Shown in pieces: positions 1,823 through 27,195 of a DNA stretch of 64,000 bases (its first letter is position 1; the number at the start of each line of letters is the position of its first letter). Source of the DNA: Qipengyuania marincola (GTDB lineage Bacteria > Pseudomonadota > Alphaproteobacteria > Sphingomonadales > Sphingomonadaceae); NCBI RefSeq assembly GCF_029688625.1, contig NZ_JARULC010000002.1:744001-808000 (forward strand), in the 5' to 3' direction. The position numbers and the translations under genes were made by a program. Below the pieces are notes generated by a model. That model was not told where the DNA came from, did not search any database, and was given only the letters and a program-made list of their open reading frames with translations.

Positions 1823-4653
1823 TGCGCGGCTCCCCAGCTCTTGCCGGTGCCTATCTCCACGCCCAGCGGAACGCTAAGTTCGACCGCCGGACGGGCTGCC
1901 TCGGCCATGACGCGCTCGATGATCGGCGAGGCAGCTTCCACATCGCTTTCGGGCAGTTCGAAGACCAGTTCGTCATGCACCTGCAGAAGCATGCGGACAT
2001 GGCCGAGGCCCGCCTCTTCCAGCGCGGGCATCATGCGGGCCATCGCGCGCTTGATGATATCGGCGCTGGTCCCCTGGATGGGCGCGTTGATCGCCGCGCG
2101 TTCGCTGCCTTGCCGCTCATTCGGGTTCTTGGAGTTGATCCGCGGGAACCACGTCTTGCGACCGAACAGCGTCTCCGAATAGCCCCGCTCGCGGACACGC
2201 TCCGTGGTTTCGAGGATATAGCGCTGGATACCGGGAAAGCGCTGGAAATAGGTGTCGATCATGTCCTGCGCTTCATCGGCTTCCACGCCCAGGCGCCCGG
2301 CAAGCCCCCAGCGCGAAATGCCGTAGAGGATCGCGAAGTTGATCGTCTTGGCGCGCCCGCGCGTGTCGCGATTGACCTCGCCGAACATCTCCTTCGCCGT
2401 GCGTGAGTGGATGTCCTCGCCCTGTTCGAAGGCTTCCTTCAGGCTTGGCACATCGGCCATGTGGGCAGCGAGGCGCAGCTCGATCTGCGAATAGTCGGCG
2501 GCAAGCAGGACATTGCCGTCTTCGGCCACGAAAGCCTCGCGGATCTGGCGGCCGATCTCGGTCCGGATCGGGATGTTCTGGAGGTTCGGATCGGTCGAGG
2601 AAAGCCGCCCGGTCTGCGCGCCGACGAGGCTGTAGCTGGTGTGCACTCGCCCGGTCTCCGGGTTGATCGCTTCCTGCAGTGCGTCGGTATAGGTCGACTT
2701 GAGCTTGGCCAGCTGGCGCCATTCGAGCACCTTGTCGGCGATCTCCGCCCCTTCGCCGGACAGCCGCTCCAGCACGCTCTGGTCGGTCGAATACTGCCCG
2801 CTCTTGCCCTTCTTCCCACCCTTGTAGCCGAGCGTGTCGAACAGCACTTCGCCCAGCTGCTTCGGGCTGCCGACAGTAAACTCCGTCCCGGCGATCTCGT
2901 GAATTTCGCCTTCGAGCCGGCCGATCTCCTTGGCGAAATCCTCCGACAGCTTGGCCAGCCGCGCGCGGTCGACCTTGATGCCGTGGCGCTCCATGCGGGC
3001 GACGACCGGGACCAGCGGCCGATCGACCCGCTCGTAAACCCGCGTGCCGCCTTCGGTTGCAAGGCGGGGCTTGAGCATGGTGCGAAGGCGCCAGGTCACG
3101 TCGGCGTCCTCGGCTGCATATTCGGTCGCCTTGTCGAGCGGGACTTCGCCGAAGGGGATCGCCTTCTTGCCCGTTCCGCACAGCTCCTTGAAGGTGAGGC
3201 AGGTATGACCAAGGTGCCGTTCGGCAAGTTCGTCCATGCCGTGCCCGCCGCCGATCCCGTCCAGCGCGCGGCCGGCATCGAGATCGAAGCTGATGATCAT
3301 GGTGTCATCGATCGGCGCGACTGTGATACCGCAGCGAGCCAGCACGTTCAGGTCGTATTTCCCATTATGGAAGACCTTGAGCAGGGCATCGCTTTCCAGC
3401 AGCGGCTTCAGCGCTGCGAGCGCCGTATCGCGATCGATCTGGTCCGGTTTCTCCGCGAACATGTCGCTGCCGCCATGGCCCAGCGGGATGTAGCACGCAT
3501 CGTTCGGCCCAAGCGCCAGGCTCACGCCCACCAGCCCGGCGCGGATGGCATCAAGGCTGTCGGTTTCGGTATCGACCGCCACCAGCCGCGCCCCTCGGGC
3601 GCGTTCTATCCAGTGCTCCAGCCGTTCCATCGTTTGCACGCATTCATAAGCGGACCGGTCTACGTCCGGCATGTCCGGGAGGGGCTGACGATTGCCGTCG
3701 CTGGTCGCCTCCGCGGCCTTCGTGTCCTGCTTCGCCGGGTTCAGATTGTTGGCGCGCGTCGGACTGCCAGTGCCCGCTTCGAGACGCTTCAGGAGGCTGG
3801 TAAAGCCGTGCTTTTCGAGGAAAGCGGCGAGCGGCTCGGATGGAACGCCGTCGAGCTTCATGTCGTCGAGCGCGACCGGCAGTTCGCAATCTTCCTTCAG
3901 CGTCACGAGCACCCTGCTGAGTTCGGCATCCTTGCGATGCTCGATCAGGCGCTCTTTCAGCTTGGACTTTTTCATATCTTCAGCGGAATCGAGGGCGGCG
4001 GTCAGGCCGCCGTGTTCTGCAATCAGCTTGCTCGCGGTCTTGGGGCCGACGCCGAAGATGCCCGGGATATTGTCGACCGAATCGCCCATCAGTGCGAGGA
4101 CATCGCCGACCTGTTCGGGCGGGACGCCGAATTTCTCCTCGACCTCCTCGATATAGATCCGCGCGCTCTTCATTGTATCGAGCATGTCGATTTTCGCGCC
4201 GTCTTTCTCGCCGACGAGCTGCATCAAATCCTTGTCGGAGCTGACGATGGTGACGTTCCAGCCCTGCTCCTGCGCGGCGCGGGCATAAGAGGCGATCATG
4301 TCGTCCGCCTCCACATCGGGCTCCTCGATGCAGGGCAGGGAGAAAGCGCGCGTGGCATCGCGGATGAGCGGAAATTGCGGCACGAGGTCTTCCGGCGGGT
4401 CGGGGCGGTTCGCCTTGTACTGGTCGTAAATCTCGTTGCGAAAGGAATGGCTCGATTTGTCGAGCACGACTGCGAGATGCGTCGGGCCATCGGCCTTGTC
4501 GAGATCGTCGGCCAGCTTCCACAGCATGGTCGTATACCCGTAAACCGCACCCACCGGGGTGCCTTCGGGATCGGTCAGCGGCGGAAGCCGGTGATAGGCG
4601 CGGAAGATATAGGCAGAGCCATCGACGAGGTAGAGATGCGGTTGTGCAGCCAT
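1819..4653 (-). CDS. polA: DNA polymerase I
   Basis: Repairs gaps and removes RNA primers in the cytoplasm. The 944-aa protein has all three domains. The 5'-3' exonuclease covers about residues 1-300. The 3'-5' proofreading domain begins near residue 340, with the metal-binding DTE at about 360 in VAVDTETDSLD, the exo II segment FHNGKYDLN, and the exo III segment YAAEDADVTW. The polymerase domain carries motif A DYSQIELR near 719, motif B RAKTINFAILYG, and motif C QVHDELVFE near 889. The proofreading residues look intact. An upstream in-frame ATG at 4740 would add 29 unrelated residues; MAAQPHLYLVDGSAYIF at 4653 is the normal family N-terminus and is chosen. The stop overlaps the TTG start of the downstream HWE kinase. 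Confidence 0.98.
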   Translation of the reverse strand: MAAQPHLYLVDGSAYIFRAYHRLPPLTDPEGTPVGAVYGYTTMLWKLADDLDKADGPTHLAVVLDKSSHSFRNEIYDQYKANRPDPPEDLVPQFPLIRDATRAFSLPCIEEPDVEADDMIASYARAAQEQGWNVTIVSSDKDLMQLVGEKDGAKIDMLDTMKSARIYIEEVEEKFGVPPEQVGDVLALMGDSVDNIPGIFGVGPKTASKLIAEHGGLTAALDSAEDMKKSKLKERLIEHRKDAELSRVLVTLKEDCELPVALDDMKLDGVPSEPLAAFLEKHGFTSLLKRLEAGTGSPTRANNLNPAKQDTKAAEATSDGNRQPLPDMPDVDRSAYECVQTMERLEHWIERARGARLVAVDTETDSLDAIRAGLVGVSLALGPNDACYIPLGHGGSDMFAEKPDQIDRDTALAALKPLLESDALLKVFHNGKYDLNVLARCGITVAPIDDTMIISFDLDAGRALDGIGGGHGMDELAERHLGHTCLTFKELCGTGKKAIPFGEVPLDKATEYAAEDADVTWRLRTMLKPRLATEGGTRVYERVDRPLVPVVARMERHGIKVDRARLAKLSEDFAKEIGRLEGEIHEIAGTEFTVGSPKQLGEVLFDTLGYKGGKKGKSGQYSTDQSVLERLSGEGAEIADKVLEWRQLAKLKSTYTDALQEAINPETGRVHTSYSLVGAQTGRLSSTDPNLQNIPIRTEIGRQIREAFVAEDGNVLLAADYSQIELRLAAHMADVPSLKEAFEQGEDIHSRTAKEMFGEVNRDTRGRAKTINFAILYGISRWGLAGRLGVEADEAQDMIDTYFQRFPGIQRYILETTERVRERGYSETLFGRKTWFPRINSKNPNERQGSERAAINAPIQGTSADIIKRAMARMMPALEEAGLGHVRMLLQVHDELVFELPESDVEAASPIIERVMAEAARPAVELSVPLGVEIGTGKSWGAAH

Positions 4654-4897: not shown

Positions 4898-5170
4898 ATG
4901 CGTAAGATCGCTCTTGTCGCCGCCGCTTCGGCCGCTGCTCTCTCGCTCGCCGCTTGCTCGGAAGCTACCGAAGATTCGGCTGAAGCCACCATGGATTCGG
5001 CTGCTGCCGACACCGAAGCCAACATGGAAGCCGCTGGCGACTCCATGGAAGCTGCTGGTGCCGAAATGGAAGCCGGTGCTGAAGAAATGGCTGCCGACGC
5101 CGACGCAGCTGCTGCTGAAGTCGAAGCTGAAGTCGAAGGCGAAACCGAAGCTGAAGCTGCTGCCGACTAA
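4898..5170 (+). CDS. Small Ala/Glu-rich lipoprotein, function unknown
   Basis: A 90-aa protein with a lipoprotein signal peptide (MRKIALVAAASAAALSL, lipobox LAAC, lipidated Cys at 20). The mature part is almost wholly Ala, Glu, Asp, Met, Ser and Thr, low in complexity and very acidic, with no recognisable domain. It should be anchored to the membrane facing the periplasm. A GAGGAA ribosome site precedes the ATG and a strong terminator follows, so it is a single-gene unit. Two similar small acidic lipoproteins lie at 27251 and 27647; this one shares the K-IALVA start and LAAC lipobox with the second. No function is assigned. Confidence 0.8.
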   Translation: MRKIALVAAASAAALSLAACSEATEDSAEATMDSAAADTEANMEAAGDSMEAAGAEMEAGAEEMAADADAAAAEVEAEVEGETEAEAAAD

Positions 5171-5214
5171 TCGCGCCAGCGCTTCGGGACGGTTTATCGT
5201 TTCGAAACAGGAAA

Positions 5215-5243
5215 GGGCGGTGCCGCGAGGCACCGCCCTTTTT
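5215..5243 (+). terminator. Rho-independent terminator of the 4898 lipoprotein gene
   Basis: A perfect 10-bp GC-rich stem (GGGCGGTGCC at 5215-5224 with its complement at 5229-5238), loop GCGA, then five T (5239-5243), 44 nt after the stop codon. Confidence 0.9.
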
Positions 5244-5280
5244 CTATTCGCGCCGCTGGAGCAAGCAGCGGGGCGCCAGC

Positions 5281-6303
5281 CTATTCGCCGCCGTATTCCG
5301 CTTCGGCCCAGGCCCGGCCATTGTCATTGGCGGCACCAAAACCGCGATAGAGCGCGCTGGTTATGTTCGAAATGCGTGCATCGCGCAGACGACGGGCTTC
5401 AAGCTTCTGGGCGCGGCTACCATTCTCGACCGCCATGGAGGGGCTCTGGCCAGTAACGTAGATCGCCGCCGCGATTGTACGCCCGTCCGCCGTGCGGAAA
5501 ATCCCGATGTCGCTCGCCGTTCGGCTAAGCGTCCCGGTCTTGTTGGCCAGCTGCGCGCTCATCGGCAGCGCCGAGCGCATGCGCCGCTTGCCGGTGGTCG
5601 TTTCGATCATCGCATCGATGATGACCTTGCGCGAACTCTCACTGAGCCATTTGCCCTGATAGATACCGGCGAGCAACTGTCCCATCGCGCGCGGGGTGGC
5701 GCTGTCACGCGTGTCGATCGAGGAGGCAGGATCGCTGCGCCCGTCTTCGCGAATGAGGGTGGCGATGTCACGGCTGAGGGTGAAGTCGGAAATCCCGGCC
5801 TTGCGCATCCATTCGTTTACAGCCGCCGGACCGCCGACGGCATTAAGTAGCGCATCGGTGCAGTCGTTGCAGCTTTTGCTGATCATCAGCGCGATGTGGC
5901 GGTAGGCAGGCATATAGGCACCGCCCGGACGGGGCAGGCGCCATTCGCTCGTCAGGCCCCATTTCCCTTCATCGACCCCGGCCAGGTAGGTGGCGGCGAT
6001 GGCGACCTTGCTGGTGCTGGCCATCGGAAAGCGCTGGTCAGCCAGGATACCGACTTCGCGACCCGTTGACAGATCGATCGCGTAAACTCCGATCCGCCCG
6101 CGCGAACCCTCGGCGACTTGCGCAATGCTGCGCTCCAGCTGCGTGTCGTAACGCGCGACCAGCGACTGCGGCTCGCGCACCTCGGTGCCGAGTGCCTGAT
6201 CGAAAGATCGCTCGAAGGCCTGCGTGTCGGAATTTGCCAGAGCCGGGCTGGCCAGCAGAACGGCCCCGGCGGCGAAGATCGTCTTGAAAAATCCTGTCCG
6301 CAT
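5281..6303 (-). CDS. Class A beta-lactamase-like serine hydrolase, exported
   Basis: A 340-aa protein with a Sec signal peptide ending ALA at about 21-23. The penicillin-binding/beta-lactamase fold is shown by S-x-x-K at 96-99 (STSK), S-x-N at 144-146 (SCN instead of the usual SDN) and K-T-G at 255-257. The segment DTRDSATPRAMG matches the class A DTTTP region. The omega-loop motif with the catalytic Glu (class A position 166) cannot be identified: the stretch LSRDIATLIREDG has no Glu-x-x-x-Asn. Two cysteines (145, 148) flank the SCN motif. Hydrolysis of beta-lactams is therefore doubtful. It may be a peptidoglycan-related hydrolase or an inactive relative. It is monocistronic and convergent with the lipoprotein gene at 4898. 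Confidence 0.8.
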   Translation of the reverse strand: MRTGFFKTIFAAGAVLLASPALANSDTQAFERSFDQALGTEVREPQSLVARYDTQLERSIAQVAEGSRGRIGVYAIDLSTGREVGILADQRFPMASTSKVAIAATYLAGVDEGKWGLTSEWRLPRPGGAYMPAYRHIALMISKSCNDCTDALLNAVGGPAAVNEWMRKAGISDFTLSRDIATLIREDGRSDPASSIDTRDSATPRAMGQLLAGIYQGKWLSESSRKVIIDAMIETTTGKRRMRSALPMSAQLANKTGTLSRTASDIGIFRTADGRTIAAAIYVTGQSPSMAVENGSRAQKLEARRLRDARISNITSALYRGFGAANDNGRAWAEAEYGGE

Positions 6304-17754: not shown

Positions 17755-18642
17755 ATGCACGGTAGCTATCAACTCAGGGAAATGCGGGACGGCGTGCATG
17801 TCTATGCGCGGTCGACCGATCTCGATGCGCTGATCGACAGTTTCCCGGCTCTCACCTTCGTCGATCCCGATCCTCGCAGCACGCGCGAAAAACTCGCCGT
17901 CGCAAGCCTCGGTGCGTCGGCATCGGTGTTGTTGCTGGCGCTTGGCAGTTCATCGCAGATGGACATCAAGCGGGAAGCGCCAGCGCAAAAGGCGGCTCCT
18001 GAGGCGGAAGCCACGCTTGATAGCCAGGCCGCGCCTACCGTGCCCGCCTCTACTGAGGTTTCGGTGGCGAGCGCGGTCGAGCGCGTGGCTCCGGTTTCCC
18101 CGCCGGAAGCGCCTTCGCCAGCACCGCCGCCTTTGCCGGTCGCGCAAACGACATCGCAGGTGGAGCCAGAGCCGACCGCTGCGGTTGACGCGCAGCCGCA
18201 GCCGGTCGATCCCAAACCGACGGTCGCGAGCGATAGCCAGCCGAGACCGGAGCTGCTCCTTTCCGAAGAAGCTGTTCTGAGCGAAGCCGATGCCTTGCTT
18301 GCCCCGCCTGAATCGGCTTCCACCAACCAAGGCGGAAAGACCCATCTCATTGCGCGGGTCGACGGGAATGAGGCAGGACAATTAAGCTTCAGCGACAGCG
18401 GCCAGACGATCAGCCTGCAGCTTGGATCGGTTCTCGCGCTACTGGCCGACCGCTTCCCGCCCGAGGAATTCGAACGGCTGGCCGGATCGCCGGCCGCGGC
18501 ACAATATGTTCCTGTCGACATGCTTGCTGCCGCGGGCCTCGCGATCAGCTATGACCCGGTCTACGACGAAATTTTGCTCGACACCTCTACAAGCGTCCCC
18601 GCCGAGGCCGGTCAGTCGCAGGTGCCTTCCGAATATTCGTAA
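17755..18642 (+). CDS. TonB-like single-pass protein next to the curli locus, function unknown
   Basis: I do not recognise the family of this 295-aa protein. An N-terminal cytoplasmic part of about 45 residues (MHGSYQLREMRDGVHVYARS) is followed by one membrane helix at about 48-66, a long Pro/Ala/Glu-rich periplasmic linker (about 70-195), and a C-terminal folded domain of about 90 residues (LIARVDGNEAGQLSFSDSG, VLALLADRFPPEEFERLAG, VPVDMLAAAGLAISYDPVYD). This layout is like TonB or other envelope-spanning proteins, though no TonB motif is seen. The gene runs toward the curli operon and its last 31 bp overlap the end of csgH. A role in curli export or attachment is only inferred from position. 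Confidence 0.75.
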   Translation: MHGSYQLREMRDGVHVYARSTDLDALIDSFPALTFVDPDPRSTREKLAVASLGASASVLLLALGSSSQMDIKREAPAQKAAPEAEATLDSQAAPTVPASTEVSVASAVERVAPVSPPEAPSPAPPPLPVAQTTSQVEPEPTAAVDAQPQPVDPKPTVASDSQPRPELLLSEEAVLSEADALLAPPESASTNQGGKTHLIARVDGNEAGQLSFSDSGQTISLQLGSVLALLADRFPPEEFERLAGSPAAAQYVPVDMLAAAGLAISYDPVYDEILLDTSTSVPAEAGQSQVPSEYS

Positions 18643-18953
18643 GTCGTCCCGTCCGCTTCGGTGACGGTCGCGCTGATGCACCATGGCTGGGCGGCGCTCA
18701 TGCGCATGGTCGACAGCACGCTTTCCTCGCCTGCCGACAGGCTGGTGCGGCCCGTGTGGCGGCTGGTCGAGGCGCCTTCGAGCACCAGCTCGTAGGCTAC
18801 CTTCTGGTCGATCGACGAATGGCCCTTCAGCACGACCGTTACATGGTCGGAGGCCTCGGCGACCTCCATCGAGATCGCGCGGTCGGTTGCATCTTGTGCC
18901 GGCATTGGGAGGGCGCTCCCGATAATCAGGGGGACGAAGGACAAGGGGGACAT
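18612..18953 (-). CDS. csgH: Curli assembly inhibitor, CsgH-like periplasmic chaperone
   Basis: A 113-aa protein with a short signal peptide (MSPLSFVPLIIGSALPMPAQ). The mature part is a small all-beta, immunoglobulin-like domain with VTVVLKGHSSIDQKVAYELVL, strand-rich Ser/Thr segments and two Cys (in PWCISATV and at the end, GTCD) that could form a disulfide. CsgH is the alphaproteobacterial counterpart of E. coli CsgC and keeps curlin subunits from polymerising in the periplasm. It is the last gene of the curli operon and its ATG overlaps the stop of the preceding gene as TAATG. The family call rests on fold pattern plus context. Confidence 0.75.
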   Translation of the reverse strand: MSPLSFVPLIIGSALPMPAQDATDRAISMEVAEASDHVTVVLKGHSSIDQKVAYELVLEGASTSRHTGRTSLSAGEESVLSTMRMSAAQPWCISATVTEADGTTYEYSEGTCD

Positions 18954-19552
18954 TAGCCGCCACCCTGCTGCGAAAGCTGGTTCACGATCGCCTCGATCAG
19001 GGCTTCGGTCTCGGCCGGAAGCTTGCTGTCTTCCTCCTCCGCCGGTGTGGCGGGAGTGTTGGGCGCCGGCACCAGCGCGATCGAGGCGAGTGCCTGAAGG
19101 TCGCGATCCTCGGGCGAGGTTTCCCGCCGACCGGCAGTACGCGACGCATCGGCCACGCCCTCACCAGCCATCGACGCGAATTTTTCGCCTACAAGGACCT
19201 GCTCGGCCGTCAGCGGCACCTCGCTGCGCGTCGCGAATTCGCTCGAACGCGTTTCGAGCCGCCGCGCACAATAATCCGCATCCTTGGCGGAAAGCAGTTC
19301 GGCGCTGCAACGGTCCATGCCCTCGACGCGCGCGAATTCCACCGTCGTGTCGGGCCGGGTCAGTTGCTCGAGATCCTCGTTGCGCGCCGCCTCGGGCGTC
19401 CCGATGGGTTCGGTGACGCGCGCATCGTCGCGGCTGCTGAGCTGTTCCATCGCCTCGGGCGCGGCCGCGTCGTTCGTGCCGGAACCGACTTGGTCGATCG
19501 CGATCGCCTGTTGTGCAAGCAGCACGGTGCCCAGCGAAATCAGGAAGCTCAT
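18953..19552 (-). CDS. Unknown exported protein in the curli operon
   Basis: I do not recognise this 199-aa protein. It begins with a short signal peptide (MSFLISLGTVLLAQQAIA, possible cleavage AIA-I). The mature part is hydrophilic and acidic, with a small Cys pair region (GMDRCSAELLSAKDADYCARRLE) about 80-100, a TAEQVLVGEKF helix, and a Pro/Ala/Glu-rich linker before a final helix (TEALIEAIVNQLSQQGGG). It lies 32 bp after the small curlin gene and overlaps csgH as TAATG, so it is firmly in the curli operon. A role as an accessory, specificity or assembly factor is inferred from position only; it does not look like CsgE. Confidence 0.8.
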   Translation of the reverse strand: MSFLISLGTVLLAQQAIAIDQVGSGTNDAAAPEAMEQLSSRDDARVTEPIGTPEAARNEDLEQLTRPDTTVEFARVEGMDRCSAELLSAKDADYCARRLETRSSEFATRSEVPLTAEQVLVGEKFASMAGEGVADASRTAGRRETSPEDRDLQALASIALVPAPNTPATPAEEEDSKLPAETEALIEAIVNQLSQQGGG

Positions 19553-19584
19553 GCGATCATCCTCGCCCTGCCAATCGGGTCCAC

Positions 19585-20358
19585 TCAGCCGCCGCCATTC
19601 GATTGCATCACGATGAGACCGGCGCCGCCTGTCTGCTCGATCTGCAAGTCGGACAGGCCGCTGCCATCCTGCGTCCAGTCGAGCCTGTTGTTAGCACCCA
19701 ATTGCACTGCTGTCATGGCGTTGCCATCGCCATTCTGGGTCAGCCGCGCCTGGTTGTCGCTGCCGTCCTGTATCAGGGAGACGCTGTTGTCCGCTCCCGA
19801 CTGGCTGATCGCAGCTGCCGAATAGGTAATGCCGTTGTCCCGCTGGAGCACATCGGCAAGGTTGCCGTTGCCCTGCTGCGCCAGCACCAGCGCGGTCTGA
19901 CCCGCGCCATCCTGGACGATTTCCGCCTGGTTGAGATCGCCATCCTGCGCCACAGCGGCGTAATGCGTGCCCTGGCCCTGGTCGATCTCGGCGCGATTGT
20001 CGTCCCCTTGCTGGACGATGCGGGCATAGCTGGAGCCCCCGGACTGGCGGGTCGTCGTTTGATTTCCGCTGCCGATCTGGTTCACGAACACGCCGCGCGC
20101 GTCCTCCTCGGGAGGATCGATCGGGTCGAAGGCTGGAGCGGTGCCGCCGGCATTGCCCTGTGCACCGCTATTGCCGTTGTTGCCGCCGCACGGATTGCCG
20201 GTGCCCTGGCCCGGACCGCTGCCGCATGGATTGCCCGGAGGCACATGCCCGCCGGCACCGCCGCCATTGCCTTGGGCGAAAGCAGGGACCGAACCGAGCG
20301 AGGCACCAAGGACCAACGCCGCGGCGGCTGTCGCTCTGAAGGCTGTCGTGATCTGCAT
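19585..20358 (-). CDS. Small curlin-repeat protein (CsgB/CsgA-like, possible nucleator)
   Basis: A 257-aa exported protein. The signal peptide ends SVPAFA-Q near residue 29. A Gly/Asn/Pro-rich stretch follows with two GNPCG motifs, then an acidic patch (DPIDPPEEDARG), then about eight curlin-type half repeats (VNQIGSGNQTTTRQSGG, RIVQQGDDNRAEIDQGQG, VAQDGDLNQAEIVQDG, LAQQGNGNLADVLQ, LIQDGSDNQARLTQNGDGN, VQLGANNRLDWTQDGSG). The start ATG 20358 has a GGAG site 7 nt upstream; an ATG five codons earlier has none. It differs from its two large neighbours in its Gly-rich start and its C-terminus, so it may be the minor or nucleating subunit, by analogy with CsgB; this is inference. Confidence 0.8.
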   Translation of the reverse strand: MQITTAFRATAAAALVLGASLGSVPAFAQGNGGGAGGHVPPGNPCGSGPGQGTGNPCGGNNGNSGAQGNAGGTAPAFDPIDPPEEDARGVFVNQIGSGNQTTTRQSGGSSYARIVQQGDDNRAEIDQGQGTHYAAVAQDGDLNQAEIVQDGAGQTALVLAQQGNGNLADVLQRDNGITYSAAAISQSGADNSVSLIQDGSDNQARLTQNGDGNAMTAVQLGANNRLDWTQDGSGLSDLQIEQTGGAGLIVMQSNGGG

Positions 20359-20500
20359 GGCGTCGCTCCGCATGGCTTTGATTGCGAGTGCTAATTCCCT
20401 ACATTCGACCGGAAACCGTTCACTCGAGAAACTCGTGTGCCGGCATCGCGCCGGCAAGAAAGGTGACGGGCCGCGCCGAAACGCGGCCCGTCGAGGGGTG

Positions 20501-21949
20501 TTACATACCCGCACCCTGAGTGACAGTGGCGCTATTGCCGCTGCCGCTCTGATTGATGAACGAGCTGTTGTTGCTCGAATACTGATCCACCATCGCGGTG
20601 TTGTCGGTGCCGGCCTGAACGATCGACGAGTAGTTGTCGTTACCGCCGTCATGCTGCGTCAGAGTGGCGCTGTTGCCACTGCCATTCTGCGCGACGAACG
20701 ACTCGCCACCATCGCCGTTCTGGGTCACCAGCGCAGTGTTGTCGAAGCTGACGCCACCGTCACCGAGGCCTTGGTAGATCGTCGAGCTATTGCCATCGCC
20801 GCCCTGATAGAGGCTGGCCTTCTGCAATTCGCCGATCTGGGCAATGCCCACCGAACTCCAGCGCTCGCCGGCGCTGTTATTGTTGCCGGTCTGGCGCACA
20901 GTCACTTCGTTGTCGACGCCGAGCTGACCGGCTACCAGGCTGTTGCTGGAATTGACCTGTTCGATGTCGGCGAAGAAGTTGTTGCTGGCATCGTTGTCGA
21001 AATAGGTCGGATCGCTGAAGTAATCGAAATCACCGACACCCAGCTGGCCCACAGCCGCATCGTTGCTCGTGCCGTTTTGAACGACCTTCGCAACCGTGCC
21101 GGCCGAAAGCTGTCCGACCAATGCATCATTGCTTGTGCCATCTTGATCGACATCGACTACCGAGCCGATTGCAATCTGGCCGGCGCGCGAGACGTTGGAC
21201 GTACCCGACTGGTTCACGTCGACAGTCGACAAAAGCCCCGCCTGGAGTACGGTCGACTGGTTGGCCGTGCCCGATTGGGTGACATTGACGGTTGCTGCGC
21301 CAGTCAGCTGGTAGACATCGGATTCGTTGTCGATGCCATCCTGGGTGACGGTGACATTCGAGAATGCCGCGGTCTGGCCGACGAAGCTGCGGTTGCCGCT
21401 GCTGGCAGAACCCATGTCCTGGCCCTGGTTGACCAGCACGGTGGAACTGGCCGCAAGCTGGGCCACATCCGATACGTTAGCACTGCCGTTCTGGTTGACA
21501 GTGGCACTGCTGTTGGTGCTGGTGCCGTCGAACTGCACCACCTGTGAGCTGTTGCCCGTGCCTTCCTGCAGCACGGTGATGGTCGAATCATCGCCCGCCT
21601 GCAGCACGTCCGACAGGTTGCCGGCCCCGTCCTGCGTCACCGAGGCAGTGTTGCCTTCCGAACCCGCGGTCTGCGTGATCAGCGATTCATTGGCATTCGA
21701 AGCGTCGGTGCCGGTCTGATTGACAGTCGCGGTATTTGTCGCGCCGGTCCCGGCCTGATCGATATCCGATACGCTACGCGATCCGATCTGGGTCACGCTG
21801 GCGACATCGTTGTTGCCGGTCTGGTCGATATCCGAGCAGTTCGCAGTGCCACCGACACAATCGGCGAGGCCCGGCGAGAGCTGCGCCATGGCGGGCGCGG
21901 CTAGAGCAAGCGCCAACGCCGAGGCGGACATTATAAGAGCATATTTCAT
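20501..21949 (-). CDS. Large curlin-repeat amyloid subunit (CsgA-like), 482 aa
   Basis: Exported fibre subunit, three times longer than E. coli CsgA (151 aa). The signal peptide ends APAMA-Q at 22-23, followed by a Cys pair (DCVGGTANC). Almost the whole mature chain is curlin-type strand-turn repeats of the form V-x-Q-x-G-x-x-N-x-S-x-V-x-Q, for example ASVTQIGSRSVSDIDQAG and VNVTQSGTANQSTVLQAG, with one longer insert (GVGDFDYFSDPTYFDNDAS). The C-terminus (YSSNNSSFINQSGSGN) is nearly the same as that of the 670-aa neighbour, so the genes are duplicates. ATG 21949 has GGGGAT upstream; the longer frame to 22012 is not secretory. It should stack as a beta-solenoid on the cell surface. Confidence 0.9.
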   Translation of the reverse strand: MKYALIMSASALALALAAPAMAQLSPGLADCVGGTANCSDIDQTGNNDVASVTQIGSRSVSDIDQAGTGATNTATVNQTGTDASNANESLITQTAGSEGNTASVTQDGAGNLSDVLQAGDDSTITVLQEGTGNSSQVVQFDGTSTNSSATVNQNGSANVSDVAQLAASSTVLVNQGQDMGSASSGNRSFVGQTAAFSNVTVTQDGIDNESDVYQLTGAATVNVTQSGTANQSTVLQAGLLSTVDVNQSGTSNVSRAGQIAIGSVVDVDQDGTSNDALVGQLSAGTVAKVVQNGTSNDAAVGQLGVGDFDYFSDPTYFDNDASNNFFADIEQVNSSNSLVAGQLGVDNEVTVRQTGNNNSAGERWSSVGIAQIGELQKASLYQGGDGNSSTIYQGLGDGGVSFDNTALVTQNGDGGESFVAQNGSGNSATLTQHDGGNDNYSSIVQAGTDNTAMVDQYSSNNSSFINQSGSGNSATVTQGAGM

Positions 21950-22015
21950 CAAAAATCCCCTGTTGGATGAAAGATTATCCGGCGGAGGGATACCCCCCCG
22001 CCGGATCGTCAATCA

Positions 22016-24028
22016 TCACATCGTACCCTGGACGACAGTGGCGGTGTTGCCATTGCCGCTCTGGTCTACGAATGAGCTGTTGTTGTTCGAATACTGGCTG
22101 ACGTCAGCCGTATTGTTGTTTCCGCTCTGGTACACTTCCGACAGGTTGGAGACGCCGGCCTGCAGGACTTCTGCAAGGTTGTCGTTGCCACCCTGCGAAA
22201 TGAGCGATTCGTTCAGCTCCGATCCTGCCGTCTGGATCAGACGGGCTTCGTTGCCGAGACCCGTCTGGATCACCGTCGACGTTCCGCTCTGGCCCAACTG
22301 CTGGACTTCGACTGCGTAGGTGAAGCCGTTGTCGGGCGTCGCGTTTTCACCCGACTGATCGACGTCCGAGCTGTTGCCCTGACCGATCTGCTGGACGAAT
22401 GCACTCGTGGTTGCCGACTGCGTAATCATCGAGTCGTTGAGCGCGTCGCCCGAGCCGATAGCGGCCGGATCGGTCTGTTGATCGACCTTTGCGATGGCGC
22501 TGACCGCACCTGCCTGTTGGTCGACATCAGACCGGTTCTGGCTGCCAGTCTGCATGACGTCGGCCGTGGCCGCATCTGCTTGGAAGATCGTCGACTCGTT
22601 TGTCGGGAAGCTCGGACCGTTGGTCGTGGTGTTCCCGAACTGGTTGACGGTTGCATGAGCACCGTCGGCCGTCTGGTCGACGAAGCTGTAATTGTCACCA
22701 TAGGTGCCGCCCTGGAACACTTCGGTAGACGCAGCAGCAGTCTGGCGAATGGCCGAATTGTTGAAGGTGCCCTGCTGTTCGAGCTCGGCGGATGCAGTGC
22801 CGGCATTGGCCATCTGTTCGACTTCCGAACGGTTGCCCGTACCGGTCTGGGTTACCATTGCGTTATTGGTGCCGAGGCCGTTCTGAATAACGCGCGAGAA
22901 GTTGCTGCGCACGGCAGCATCGAGCCCGAGCGGATCCGGCTGGTCACTGCGCGGCGCACCCGACACGAGACCCGAAGCGGTCTGGATGACGGTAGCCGAT
23001 GTGGTGCCGCCGGTCTGGTCAATAATGCTGTCGTTGAACGAACCGTTCTGCGTCAGGCTCGCGACAGCCGTGGATGACGTCTGGTCAACGAAGCTCGCGT
23101 TTTCGTTACCGGTCTGCTGCACGTCTACATCATTACCAAGAGACGAATTGAACGGATCGGACTGCTCGACGCGAGACAGGTTGTCGTTTCCGGTCTGAAT
23201 GATATCGACCGTCTGTGCATCACGGATACCGGTCTGCACAACCGACGAGATATTGTCGTCGCCGGTCTGCGTCACATTGACCCGCTGTCCGTTGGTGCCG
23301 CCGAAATTCTGGCCTGGCATGTTCTGGATAATGATCGAGTCATTGCCGACACCGGTTTGGGTCGTCGTGGCTCTGGTTCCCGTGGCACCGTTCGGGCCGC
23401 CATCGAAGCTTCCCTGATAGATTTCGGCATTGTTTTCAGAGCCGGTCTGAATGATGCCACCGTTCAAGTTGTTCGGATTGCCGTCCCCTACGGTGGCGAC
23501 GTTGCCGCTTTGCTGGAAAACAATTGCGGTGTTATCGCTGCCGCCCGACTGTGCAACTTCAGCCGTCGTATCAAGGCCGCCATTCTGCGCGATGAAGGAT
23601 GAGCTGGCGCCATCCTGCGTGACCACAGCGTTGTGATTGCGCGTTTCGGTCTGGAGAATGACCGATTCCGAACCCTGACCCGACTGGGTAACGGTCGCAC
23701 GGGTCGGGTAGCCAGCGATGCCGGCGTCCGATTGCAGGATGTAGGACGACGCATCAGTGCCCTTCTGCGTGACGGTCGCCTCCGCTTCGATCGAACCGGC
23801 TTCTTGGTCGATATCGGAAACGTTGCCCGAACCCGACTGCGTCACGGTAGCCGACAGGTCGGTACCGGCTTGGTCGATAAGCGAGCAATTGTTGGTGGTT
23901 CCGGCGCATTCCGGGGTTCCGGGCGCAGCGCTCGGCGTTGCCGGAGCGGTTGGGGCGGTCTGGGCAAAAGCCGGGGCCGCCATCGAAAGCGCCAGTACTG
24001 AGGCGCCGGTTAGAATAGCATTCTTCAT
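22016..24028 (-). CDS. Giant curlin-repeat amyloid subunit (CsgA-like), 670 aa
   Basis: Exported fibre subunit of 670 aa. The signal peptide (MKNAILTGASVLALSMAAP) ends AFA-Q at 22-23; a Pro/Ala-rich segment and a Cys pair (ECAGTTNNC) follow. The remainder is dozens of curlin half repeats (ATVTQSGSGNVSDIDQ, VDIIQTGNDNLSRVEQ, SLISQGGNDNLAEVLQAG), interrupted by short Gly/Asn/Pro inserts that may form loops. The last 30 residues (SQYSNNNSSFVDQSGNGN) match the end of the 482-aa neighbour. AAGGTGA lies 7-8 nt before the ATG. The 214-bp gap to csgG could hold a separate promoter, which would allow subunits to outnumber the secretion proteins; no clear promoter was found there. Confidence 0.9.
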   Translation of the reverse strand: MKNAILTGASVLALSMAAPAFAQTAPTAPATPSAAPGTPECAGTTNNCSLIDQAGTDLSATVTQSGSGNVSDIDQEAGSIEAEATVTQKGTDASSYILQSDAGIAGYPTRATVTQSGQGSESVILQTETRNHNAVVTQDGASSSFIAQNGGLDTTAEVAQSGGSDNTAIVFQQSGNVATVGDGNPNNLNGGIIQTGSENNAEIYQGSFDGGPNGATGTRATTTQTGVGNDSIIIQNMPGQNFGGTNGQRVNVTQTGDDNISSVVQTGIRDAQTVDIIQTGNDNLSRVEQSDPFNSSLGNDVDVQQTGNENASFVDQTSSTAVASLTQNGSFNDSIIDQTGGTTSATVIQTASGLVSGAPRSDQPDPLGLDAAVRSNFSRVIQNGLGTNNAMVTQTGTGNRSEVEQMANAGTASAELEQQGTFNNSAIRQTAAASTEVFQGGTYGDNYSFVDQTADGAHATVNQFGNTTTNGPSFPTNESTIFQADAATADVMQTGSQNRSDVDQQAGAVSAIAKVDQQTDPAAIGSGDALNDSMITQSATTSAFVQQIGQGNSSDVDQSGENATPDNGFTYAVEVQQLGQSGTSTVIQTGLGNEARLIQTAGSELNESLISQGGNDNLAEVLQAGVSNLSEVYQSGNNNTADVSQYSNNNSSFVDQSGNGNTATVVQGTM

Positions 24029-24242
24029 GGTTGCATCACCTTCTGATTAAGGCGATAACCATCGTCGACCACGGCGCGTTAGACGCCGGGCATCACCAGG
24101 TTATCGCAGCCTACACACTGCACGTTCGAGAGTTGCCGCTCTCGCGCGTGCTTTTTTTGCGACCTTTTCTCACATGCGCTGGTTCGAAATTATGCGCATG
24201 CTCCGATACTGGGCTCTCCTCCTCCGGCGTCTCCGCCGGTTC

Positions 24243-25205
24243 TCAATTTCGTTCCTCGTCATCGTCCTCTTCGACGATGGTCAGAGCGCTGAACGAGCCG
24301 GCCTTGCGATAGGCCGCCTGCACGTCGCGCGCTTCGTAGATGCCGTCCCGCTCGTTGCGGTAGAGGGCGCGGATCGGTGCGGCGCTCGCCATGTCGGCAA
24401 ACTGCCACAAATTGAGCTCGACGCCCTCCAGCACCAGGCCGTAAACCGCTTTCTCGACGGCCTGCTGCAGCGCGATCTGGTCGGGTTCATTGGTGGTGAA
24501 GCCGAATTCCGCTTCGAGCAGTTCCTTGAACGCCACGAAGCGATAGGCGCTGGCGCCGACCGCGCGCGATGCGATCGTCTTCGATGCGGTGACCGTGGTC
24601 AGAACTTCGCCGGTGCGGACCGAAACAGCGCGCAGATAGACGGTGACCGTATCCTGCCGGTATTCGGTGCGCCCGCCGATGCCGAGGAAGGCCGCGCCCG
24701 CCCCGCCGGTGACAGTATTGGTGTCGTAACCCACGATCCCGCCTTCCAGCAGGACCCCGGCAAACAACAGCGCGGGCAGGGCGTTGGGATTGACGCCTTC
24801 CTCACCAAGGTAGCGCTTGCGCATCTCGGAAATGATCTGCCGCTCCTTGAGGAGGTTATCGAGCTTCTCGCGCTCGACGATCGTGAACCACTGGCGAGTG
24901 CCCGCGTCTTGCAGCGCCTTGACCAGCATCGAGCTGGCACCCTGGGTGACGGCTCGCGACAGGGTCTGGCCCGCCTCGGTCGGTTTGAACTGCCCGGTCT
25001 GGTCGGTGAAGCCGTAGACCGCCACTGCGACCTGCCGCTGTGGCGGCGGCAATTCGTTCAGCAGGACCTGCGTCTGCGTACGCTTCGGGAAGAAGGCGAG
25101 TTTCGTCTCGGTCGGCAGGAAATCGCGACCGTCGTCGGTCAGCGTGCTGCACCCCATCAATGCGAGGCAGGCCGCGGCGGCCGTGATGCGTTTGAACACC
25201 CGCAT
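24243..25205 (-). CDS. csgG: Curli secretion channel lipoprotein CsgG
   Basis: Outer-membrane lipoprotein of 320 aa that forms the nonameric pore exporting curlin subunits. The signal peptide ends in lipobox LMGC (Cys at 19). Family features: VAVAVYGFTDQTGQFKP near residue 60-76, the amphipathic region LVKALQDAGTRQWFTIVEREKLDNLLKERQI, and the transmembrane hairpins around GGIVGYDTNTVTGGAGAAFLGIGGRTEYRQDTVTVYLRAVSVRTGEVL, ending EFGFTTNEPDQIALQQAVEKAVYGL. It is about 40 residues longer than E. coli CsgG owing to a C-terminal tail ending in an acidic stretch (EEDDDEERN). It follows csgF by 3 bp (TGA-GGC-ATG). Confidence 0.95.
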   Translation of the reverse strand: MRVFKRITAAAACLALMGCSTLTDDGRDFLPTETKLAFFPKRTQTQVLLNELPPPQRQVAVAVYGFTDQTGQFKPTEAGQTLSRAVTQGASSMLVKALQDAGTRQWFTIVEREKLDNLLKERQIISEMRKRYLGEEGVNPNALPALLFAGVLLEGGIVGYDTNTVTGGAGAAFLGIGGRTEYRQDTVTVYLRAVSVRTGEVLTTVTASKTIASRAVGASAYRFVAFKELLEAEFGFTTNEPDQIALQQAVEKAVYGLVLEGVELNLWQFADMASAAPIRALYRNERDGIYEARDVQAAYRKAGSFSALTIVEEDDDEERN

Positions 25206-25208
25206 GCC

Positions 25209-25658
25209 TCAGTCGACCTCGATGAACAGGGGAACGACGATGCGGGTTTCCTCACCCGTATCGTCATTGGTGATCACCAGCGTGACGGAATCGAGCGAGC
25301 GAAAGAATTCGATGGTCTGCCCGCCAAAGCTGATCGTGCCGCTTTCCTGCGGGTTTTCGCCGAAGATGGCGTCAACGATCTGCGAGGATAGGGCCGAGAG
25401 CAGGCGCGACTGCAACTGGCGTGCGAAAATATCGGCCTGCGATCCGCTCGAGGCGGCACGCGGATCGCGATAATCGTTCTGCGCATTGGCAGTGCCGAGG
25501 ATGTGGTTCGAATTGAACGGATTGCCGTTGAATGTCGGACTGATCGGTTCGTGGACCAGATCCTGCGCCACGGCCGGCGTCGCGAACAGTATGAAAAGAG
25601 CTCCTGCGAGCCCAACCCCTGATTTAGACACCCCTGTCTCCCAAGTCGTTTTCTGCAT
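25209..25658 (-). CDS. csgF: Curli assembly protein CsgF
   Basis: Caps the CsgG pore on the outside and couples it to nucleation. After a signal peptide ending AVA-Q, the mature N-terminus is DLVHEPISPTFNGNPFNSNHILGTANAQN, the conserved pore-inserting segment of CsgF, followed by the helical QLQSRLLSALSSQIVDAIFGE and a beta domain. ATG 25658 gives 149 aa but its GGAGG site is only 2 nt away; a GTG at 25629-25631 has GGGAG at good spacing and would give a neater signal peptide (SKSGVGLAGALFILFATP), so the true start may be there. First gene of the curli operon as seen here. Confidence 0.93.
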   Translation of the reverse strand: MQKTTWETGVSKSGVGLAGALFILFATPAVAQDLVHEPISPTFNGNPFNSNHILGTANAQNDYRDPRAASSGSQADIFARQLQSRLLSALSSQIVDAIFGENPQESGTISFGGQTIEFFRSLDSVTLVITNDDTGEETRIVVPLFIEVD

Positions 25659-25945: not shown

Positions 25946-26323
25946 TTACTTGAGCTCGACGGTACCGCCGGCTGCTTCGATCTTGCCCTTGATTTCTTCG
26001 GCTTCCGCCTTGTTGACGCCTTCCTTGAGCGGCTTGGGCGCGCCTTCGACAAGAGCCTTGGCTTCGGTCAGGCCCAGGCCGGTGATGGCGCGGACTTCCT
26101 TGATGACCTGGATCTTCTTGCCACCGTCGCCGGTGAGGACGACGTCGAATTCGTCCTTCTCTTCAGCAGCGGCACCAGCGTCGCCACCGCCGGCAGGCGC
26201 AGCAACGGCAACAGCAGCGGCGGCGCTGACGCCCCACTCTTCTTCAAGCGCCGTGGCAAGCTCAGCGGCTTCCATGACGGTCAGCTTCGACAGTTCTTCA
26301 ACAAGCTTGGCGATATCGGCCAT
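25946..26323 (-). CDS. rplL: 50S ribosomal protein L7/L12
   Basis: Stalk protein of the large ribosomal subunit that recruits translation GTPases; 125 aa. The dimerising N-terminal helices ([22 protein letters not shown]), the Ala/Gly-rich hinge ([14 protein letters not shown]), and the globular C-terminal domain ([34 protein letters not shown]) are all in place. It follows rplJ by 83 bp. Unusually, rpoB is not downstream; the curli operon is. Confidence 0.99.
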
Positions 26324-26406
26324 GATGTTTCACTCCAAAAATAATAGGCCGGGGCGGACTGTTTGAATGCCCCGATGAATAAATCGCGATATGCGATGAA
26401 CCTGGC

Positions 26407-26922
26407 TTACGCCGCGTCTTTGGCGCCATAGGCACCGAATACGCGGGCGAGCTTGCTCGCAGGGGCGTTGACGAGCTGGACAACCTTGGTTGCCGGCGCG
26501 TTGACGAGACCCACGATCTTGCCCCGCAGTTCGTCGAGGCTCGGCATCGAGGCGAGTGCCTTGACTCCGGCTTCGTCGAGCTTCTGCGCGCCCATCGAAC
26601 CACCGACGATCTCGATCTTGTCGGTGGTTTTGGCGAACTCCACCACGGCCTTGGCCGCGGCGACCGGATCCTCGGAATAACCGAGGGCGGTCGGACCTGA
26701 CAGGTACTCATCGAGACCTGCGTAGTCGGTGTCCTTGAGGGCGAGCTTGGCGAGGCGGTTCTTCGCAACCTTGTAGGACGCGCCGGCTTCACGCATCTTC
26801 GTGCGCAGTTCGGTCGACTGGGCGACCGAAAGGCCCAGGTTACGGGTCACGACGACCACGCCAGCCTGGTTGAAGACTTCGCTGAGCTGGGCGACCGAAT
26901 CGGCTTTCTGCGAACGATCCAT
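26407..26922 (-). CDS. rplJ: 50S ribosomal protein L10
   Basis: Stalk base protein that anchors L7/L12 dimers to the ribosome; 171 aa. MDRSQKADSVAQLSEVF begins the normal sequence, with GASYKVAKNRLAKLAL and the C-terminal L12-binding helix in view. ATG 26922 has AAGGAG 6 nt upstream; an upstream in-frame ATG at 26946 overlaps this site and is rejected. Expected to be autoregulated by L10(L12)4 binding its leader. rplK and rplA are not next to it. Confidence 0.98.
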   Translation of the reverse strand: MDRSQKADSVAQLSEVFNQAGVVVVTRNLGLSVAQSTELRTKMREAGASYKVAKNRLAKLALKDTDYAGLDEYLSGPTALGYSEDPVAAAKAVVEFAKTTDKIEIVGGSMGAQKLDEAGVKALASMPSLDELRGKIVGLVNAPATKVVQLVNAPASKLARVFGAYGAKDAA

Positions 26923-27195
26923 GCCATACTCCTTCACAATGGTCATACGGGATGGCTCCCGGACGACCGGCTACGTTTGTCCGTGCTGCACAAGGCAACA
27001 CGGGCGGGTCCGTTGATGGGGAAGGAGATGCGCCACCATGCGATATGGAGCTGGCGCGAACCGACGATGCCCTGCGGCACCGCGTGAAAACTCTGTTCCC
27101 CGTCTAGGCTGGAAATTAAGACCGGCAGATCCCGGTCACCAACTGTCTCGGACGGATGAACGCCGGGCACAGAGAGGCCCGCCGTTGCGGGGCGG
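26923..27195 (-). promoter_or_regulatory. Long leader upstream of rplJ, candidate L10 leader
   Basis: About 270 bp without a gene lie upstream of rplJ. In other bacteria this position holds the L10 leader, where L10-L12 binding represses the operon. The sequence contains several GC-rich self-complementary patches but I could not match the consensus structure by eye. A covariance search with the Rfam L10_leader model would decide. Confidence 0.45.

Follow-up and report, generated by a model that had tools for sequence, protein, structure and literature searches.

How can unfolded curlin subunits of several hundred residues reach the secretion channel CsgG in bacteria that lack CsgE? The question is raised by a locus of Qipengyuania marincola located in the window analysed here, i.e. 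the stretch of 64,000 nucleotides (nt) spanning positions 744001-808000 of contig NZ_JARULC010000002.1 (contig C2 of genome G000, which measures 2.99 Mb). Seven consecutive minus-strand genes, all of them with open frames, were identified in this locus: csgF, csgG, three curlin genes encoding proteins of 670, 482 and 257 amino acids (aa), a gene for a 199-aa protein here called X, and csgH. That this is a curli (type VIII secretion) locus in which two of the curlin subunits are giant had already been proposed in an initial annotation of the same DNA and is supported by family profiles, gene order and one structure model. We consider it very probable that the whole is best explained as an intact alphaproteobacterial curli operon without CsgE and with CsgH, working along the steps set out in the last section. 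Since giant curlins are established, the pair in the window adds one further example, and the part worth following is X, a candidate for an undescribed curli accessory protein, rather than subunit size.

The curli operon and its giant curlins

The gene csgF (25209..25658, minus strand, as for all genes of the operon) encodes a 149-aa curli assembly factor matching PF10614 (E 7.8e-30, 104 bits) and csgG (24243..25205) a 320-aa secretion channel matching PF03783 (E 2.9e-60). Both proteins and the three curlins scored above the Pfam cut-offs, and the 113-aa product of csgH (18612..18953), a CsgC-like anti-amyloid chaperone, scored above that of NCBIfam model NF041112 (chap_CsgH_alph; 42.3 bits, cut-off 35). 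In the whole genome, CsgG is matched at nearly full length by the csgG of the window only (204.7 bits), and the ten curlin repeat matches listed in the genome search all fall within the locus. A second, partial CsgG-family match of 33.6 bits was observed at G000:C2:622318-622824 (-). The coordinates and gene order given by the initial annotation (csgF, csgG, the three curlins, csgH) agree with the Pfam and NCBIfam assignments. The genes that it named are all present; left out of its list were X, in the gap between the 257-aa curlin and csgH, and a convergent gene at 17755-18642, here called Y. Directly upstream of csgF, rplJ and rplL were found (25946-26946, minus strand), which are present in 14 and 16 of 80 related loci, respectively.

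Giant curlin 1 (22016..24028, 670 aa), giant curlin 2 (20501..21949, 482 aa) and the short terminal curlin, the last one of the operon (19585..20358, 257 aa), are all matched by Curlin_rpt (PF07012), the profile with which the initial annotation proposed to check its two large proteins, with E values of 5.6e-41 (9 stretches), 8.5e-44 (12 stretches) and 5.6e-15 (4 stretches). In the same order, strict QxGxxN motifs were counted 16, 14 and 8 times, compared to means of 0.68, 0.53 and 0.45 and maxima of 5, 4 and 3 in 2000 shuffles, and half-repeat glutamines form chains of 47, 36 and 14 with a commonest spacing of 11. The repeats are thus far above chance, as had been claimed; the statement that the mature chains consist almost wholly of QxGxxN units was too strong, because most of the half-repeats are degenerate. 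Loops interrupting the repeats of both large proteins were recovered in the repeat parse as insertions, defined as gaps of 14 to 33 residues, of which there are 9, 6 and 2 in the 670-, 482- and 257-aa proteins; the longest in the 670-aa protein measure 33 residues and follow Q172 and Q349. Both large curlins finish in canonical curlin repeats. The short one has a Gly/Pro-rich, repeat-free stretch up to its first half-repeat glutamine at residue 94. By eye, the three curlins show hydrophobic N termini ending in AFA-Q, AMA-Q and AFA-Q; a simple signal-peptide pattern fits all three, but places the cut some residues later. A cysteine pair is located ahead of the first repeat of giant curlin 1 (C41/C48, 23885..23908, minus strand), at C31/C38 in giant curlin 2, and near the mature N terminus of the 257-aa curlin.

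For the 670-aa protein an AlphaFold2 (AF2) model was built from an alignment with 20 related curlins. The model (predicted local distance difference test score, pLDDT, 78.4; predicted template modelling score, pTM, 0.80; 46 strands) predicts an all-beta repeat body interrupted by one long loop, with pLDDT below 50 at residues 1-32, 334-364 and 366-373, and agrees with the suggestion in the initial annotation of a much longer beta-solenoid. VIA-align was run on the 82 top-ranked Foldseek chains, handedness being outside what this alignment can judge. Its best match is CsgA R15.5 of Pontibacter korlensis, a solved curlin (8c50), with Z 32.3 over 350 of 355 residues, a root mean square deviation of 8.2 and 31% identity, and the next row has Z 18.0; E. 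coli CsgA (8enq) obtained Z 9.6. The remaining rows below 8c50 belong to different proteins, of which many are beta-helical, and were read as a shared arrangement only. Sequence profile A4 also matched 8c50 (E 1.6e-62) and 8enq (E 9.1e-14). Weighing against the predicted fold, Foldseek returned no PDB match at E <= 0.001 for this model, 8c50 standing at 0.64; judged by its pTM and VIA-align Z, the 670-aa protein would nevertheless have the curlin beta-solenoid fold. R15.5 has highly regular repeats according to passages of Sleutel et al. 2023 (PMC10192328), unlike the mostly degenerate half-repeats in the window.

The locus was compared with relatives from a CsgG scan of named genomes, for which the best 80 of 169 loci were used; by their titles these are mostly Sphingomonadales and some Caulobacterales, and they are mutually related and include some near-duplicates. 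X, Y and CsgH were labelled in them by iterated hidden Markov models (HMMs) seeded with the proteins of the window, and curlins were called by motif count, "large" referring to any curlin ahead of the last one (140 to 1110 aa). Open reading frames (ORFs) were counted from the first possible start codon (the 482-aa protein being scored as 503), so that the curlin lengths given are upper limits. Named relatives repeatedly show the order csgF-csgG-large curlins-short curlin-X-csgH. In total, 69 of the related loci carry X, with one, two, three and four large curlins in 12, 21, 23 and 12 of them and none in one (by motif count, L106 lacks large curlins); the counts retain L146, where the "short" position is taken by an 853-aa ORF, and L122, where X is truncated at the locus end. 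Together with the window this gives 70 X-bearing loci with 173 large curlins, whose lengths have a median of 548 aa and reach 1110 aa; 40 of the 173 measure 670 aa or more, and 124 measure 482 aa or more. The giant curlins of the window are ordinary, mid-range in size for their own clade. Cysteine pairs of the form C-x5-8-C were found near the N terminus of 24 of the 173 large curlins, the 670-aa one included, and in 23 of 70 short curlins, again including that of the window. Two loci, L088 and L089, come from bins titled Microbacterium and Flavobacteriaceae, and their curli gene sizes are as in Qipengyuania flava (L086), CsgG of L088 being 99% identical; these are probably mislabelled metagenome bins.

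The novelty of giant subunits implied by the initial annotation does not hold. Sleutel et al. 2023 (PMC10192328) describe, in the passages covered here, CsgA homologues with 4-62 repeats, an average repeat of 23 residues and degenerate (D-class) repeats with loop insertions, as well as a 2.4 Å stagger in curlin, and up to 22 repeats were reported in passages of Dueholm et al. 2012 (PMC3521004). The long and D-class homologues share with the giants of the window their many repeats, arc insertions, half-repeat geometry and beta-solenoid models, and nothing was found in those passages of PMC10192328 that would distinguish the two in kind.

Compared to csgBAC/csgDEFG of E. coli K-12, the locus shares CsgF, CsgG, curlin-repeat subunits and a chaperone of the CsgC/CsgH type. 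It differs in forming one operon, in the extra gene X, in the size of its subunits, which measure 257-670 aa where E. coli has 151 aa, the two largest being three to four times as long, in the lack of a CsgD-like product among its seven proteins according to Pfam, and in CsgE (PF10627), for which no match was obtained in any of 199 family genomes, that of the window included, although the E. coli control was matched. Passages of PMC3521004 report CsgE as absent from Alphaproteobacteria, and the csgH operons described there and by Taylor et al. 2016 (PMC4838910) share the absence of csgC, csgD and csgE and a csgH adjoining the curlins; the passages of these two papers covered here do not mention X. 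CsgE is not a defining component of the alphaproteobacterial curli branch.

Turnover of the large curlins and the short terminal curlin

The three subunits have not been conserved to the same extent. In L084, CsgG is 87.7% and CsgF 88.0% identical to the window, and the neighbouring MATE and MscS proteins 93.5% and 96.0%; the two large curlins are matched there at 31% and 32% at best, about equal to the level of unrelated curlins (median 33% at CsgG 80-85%). The 482-aa gene is 81% identical in L085, a relative slightly more distant than L084, and homologues of the 257-aa curlin match it over the greater part of its length, for instance that of L084 with 71% over 250 aa. Counterparts were counted over all ordered pairs of loci, which are not independent, and by different rules: at least 45% identity and an alignment of at least 0.8 of the longer protein for large curlins, and at least 45% with no length rule for the short one. 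At CsgG identities of 93-97%, 90-93% and 85-90%, 52/69, 98/206 and 115/694 large curlins had a counterpart under these rules, short curlins were kept in 24/24, 70/70 and 202/228 cases, and X in 24/24, 70/70 and 190/228. X and the short curlin also diverge fast, with medians of 58% and 65% at CsgG 90-93%. Judged from these comparisons, the large curlins turn over faster than csgG and csgF, with which gene loss, gene gain and fast change are each compatible.

The 257-aa curlin may be the nucleator of the fibre, for which it is a candidate. A C-terminal profile of the short curlins weighs against this, as it scored E. coli CsgA (35.4 bits) above CsgB (24.3 bits) and thus gave no CsgB-specific match; its separation of short from large curlins is circular, since it was tested on its own training set. 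The NCBIfam models favour CsgB over CsgA on the whole 257-aa protein (77.0 against 47.3 bits), but they do the same on the 670-aa protein (144.5 against 107.1 bits), so that the NCBIfam CsgB model fails to separate CsgB from CsgA.

The conservation of the short curlin, which keeps its counterpart far more often than the large curlins at CsgG 85-90%, would also fit a fibre built by the 257-aa protein alone, with the two giants serving as decorations or as adhesive solenoids in their own right exported through the same channel, and the insertions of the large curlins, together with the N-terminal cysteine pair found in some of them, point the same way. We regard this arrangement as unlikely: the two large proteins end in canonical repeats, the modelled 670-aa protein aligns with a CsgA that forms fibres, at least one curlin precedes the short one in 68 of the 69 other X loci (a positional count, the shortest having 140 aa), and the long homologue R15.5 makes fibres in vitro according to passages of PMC10192328. 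Export of the large proteins through this CsgG, and their assembly into fibres, remain our preferred inference.

Gene X and the convergent gene Y

X (18953..19552) is a conserved accessory gene outside all family models, which overlaps csgH by one base (18953). Its 199-aa product consists of a hydrophobic N terminus, a GxDxC...C core and a helical C-terminal part. It had no match in Pfam or NCBIfam, and across 54 members no family was common to more than one; six residues (G78, D80, C82, C95, E100 and R102) are invariant over these members in alignment A3. Among the papers listed by searches of open-access PubMed Central (PMC), none was recognisable as a description of X.

The association of X with curli genes is close. 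The iterated HMM detected X in 69 of the 80 csgG loci, in 69 of 69 on the csgG strand and with a median start at -4 nt from the stop of the short curlin (ORFs taken from the first possible start). Of the 11 loci without X, 7 end within 510 bases past the last labelled gene. Among the 199 family genomes, 19 contain CsgF; a search with the single X protein found it in 14 genomes, all of them among these 19 (hypergeometric 1e-17), to which the HMM adds X in G094 and a fused remnant in G126. In the class-level set of 289 genomes, CsgF was found in 5, that of the window included, and X only in the genome of the window, although the first pass scored at most 9 candidates per genome and weak relatives may escape it; neither the X nor the CsgH model matched in the loci of three of the four other class genomes with CsgF, the fourth being below the CsgF cut-off. 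The CsgH label is present in 50 of the 69 X loci, one of them weak, and in some Caulobacterales a short CsgH-like frame was seen by eye after X, outside these counts.

Several observations have to be set against a dedicated and general role for X in curli formation. Four of the 11 loci without X (L141, L144, L159 and L160) have at least 2 kb past the last labelled gene, suggesting that X is not indispensable everywhere, and X is absent from the fetched stretches of 3 of the 19 CsgF genomes: G075, G117 (a short contig) and G145 (decayed). The AF2 model of X is of low confidence (pLDDT 67, pTM 0.25), showing helices mainly in the C-terminal half and little else. Alignment of profile A3 with E. 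coli CsgE by hhalign gave a probability of 0.1% (one template sequence), and a PDB search with the X profile returned three matches only, all at E 0.8-0.9.

The same results bear on the identity of X with CsgE, which was rejected for lack of similarity. That no CsgE match occurs in the 199 genomes, and that X is present and linked to curli, would be expected if X were a strongly diverged CsgE, but this is very unlikely given the hhalign result, the absence of any CsgE family from the Pfam hits of X, the disordered and helical prediction (of low confidence) and the invariant set of residues that X has of its own.

A resemblance to the curlins themselves was found in the N-terminal part of X. 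As the loci are related and partly near-duplicate, the motif test was redone on 31 X sequences with less than 50% identity, in which Q-[LVI]-[STG] occurs 80 times in the N-terminal part (mean 9.8 and maximum 21 in 1000 shuffles) and the reversed motif 4 times, compared to 10 in shuffles; the C-terminal part has 14 (shuffle mean 7.1, maximum 15). The commonest spacings of the motif are 13 and 12, and the glutamines of curlin half-repeats are here mostly 11 apart, so that the likeness of X to curlin repeats is suggestive, not proof. A more specific, and doubtful, proposal is that X is a new curli component combining curlin-like pseudo-repeats (Q-[LVI]-[STG], 12-13 apart) in a disordered N-terminal arm with an invariant cysteine pair and helices, which might bind unfolded giant curlins by mimicking their half-repeats and pass them to CsgG in place of CsgE.

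In this proposal Y could be a second, optional partner. Y (17755..18642, plus strand, 295 aa) is an optional neighbour that converges on the operon and shares 31 nt with the csgH end. It comprises a hydrophobic segment, a Pro/Ala-rich linker and a conserved C-terminal domain, without a Pfam or NCBIfam family above cut-off. Of the 69 other X loci, 17 have a homologue, which in 16 cases lies behind csgH in convergent orientation and in one case upstream of csgF, and the motif YDPVYDE closes the C-terminal domain in 18 of the 18 listed, that of the window included. In 12 of the 17 relatives a tail follows with two Q elements, each with a residue that is hydrophobic or small at position -2 relative to the Q; the Y of the window has no such tail.

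Export, fibre formation and loss of the operon

Taking the named families as a guide, all subunits would be exported by the Sec system and held unfolded in the periplasm by CsgH; CsgG would let the unfolded chains through, and CsgF together with the short terminal curlin would initiate the fibre at the surface. Giant curlins 1 and 2 may then join as long, ready-made solenoid blocks. With a cross-beta spacing of 4.8 Å per rung, these would have about 23 and 18 rungs and be roughly 11 and 9 nm long, compared to 5 rungs in E. coli CsgA, figures which are arithmetic from half-repeat counts and this spacing and not measurements. Loops and the cysteine pair, lying outside the repeat core, would decorate the fibre. 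The gene of X directly precedes csgH, and its product would be a dedicated curli accessory protein that most likely acts either on the periplasmic curlins or at CsgG, the site of CsgE action in E. coli.

Two family genomes contain remnants of such an operon. In G126 (L079, 4804-5424, plus strand) an in-frame fusion links the start of csgF with the end of X, and nothing labelled as csgG or curlin occurs within the 19-kb stretch; this looks like the scar of an internal operon deletion. In G145 (L083) a csgF fragment at about 4487-4618 lies close before csgH (frame 4976-5452), and no curli gene is labelled in the interval; the operon core may have been lost here in a second, separate event. These remnants, and the restriction of CsgF to 19 of the 199 family genomes, would fit the least probable reading, a relic that looks intact and no longer works; against it, in the window seven of seven reading frames are open and the repeat periodicity is preserved far above chance.

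The large subunits turn over faster than the steady channel, suggesting that selection changes the fibre rather than its export. Long unfolded subunits, for which related operons have open frames as long as 1110 aa, must reach CsgG without CsgE, and with X regularly accompanying the subunit genes in Sphingomonadales and Caulobacterales, the question of CsgE-less delivery becomes testable.

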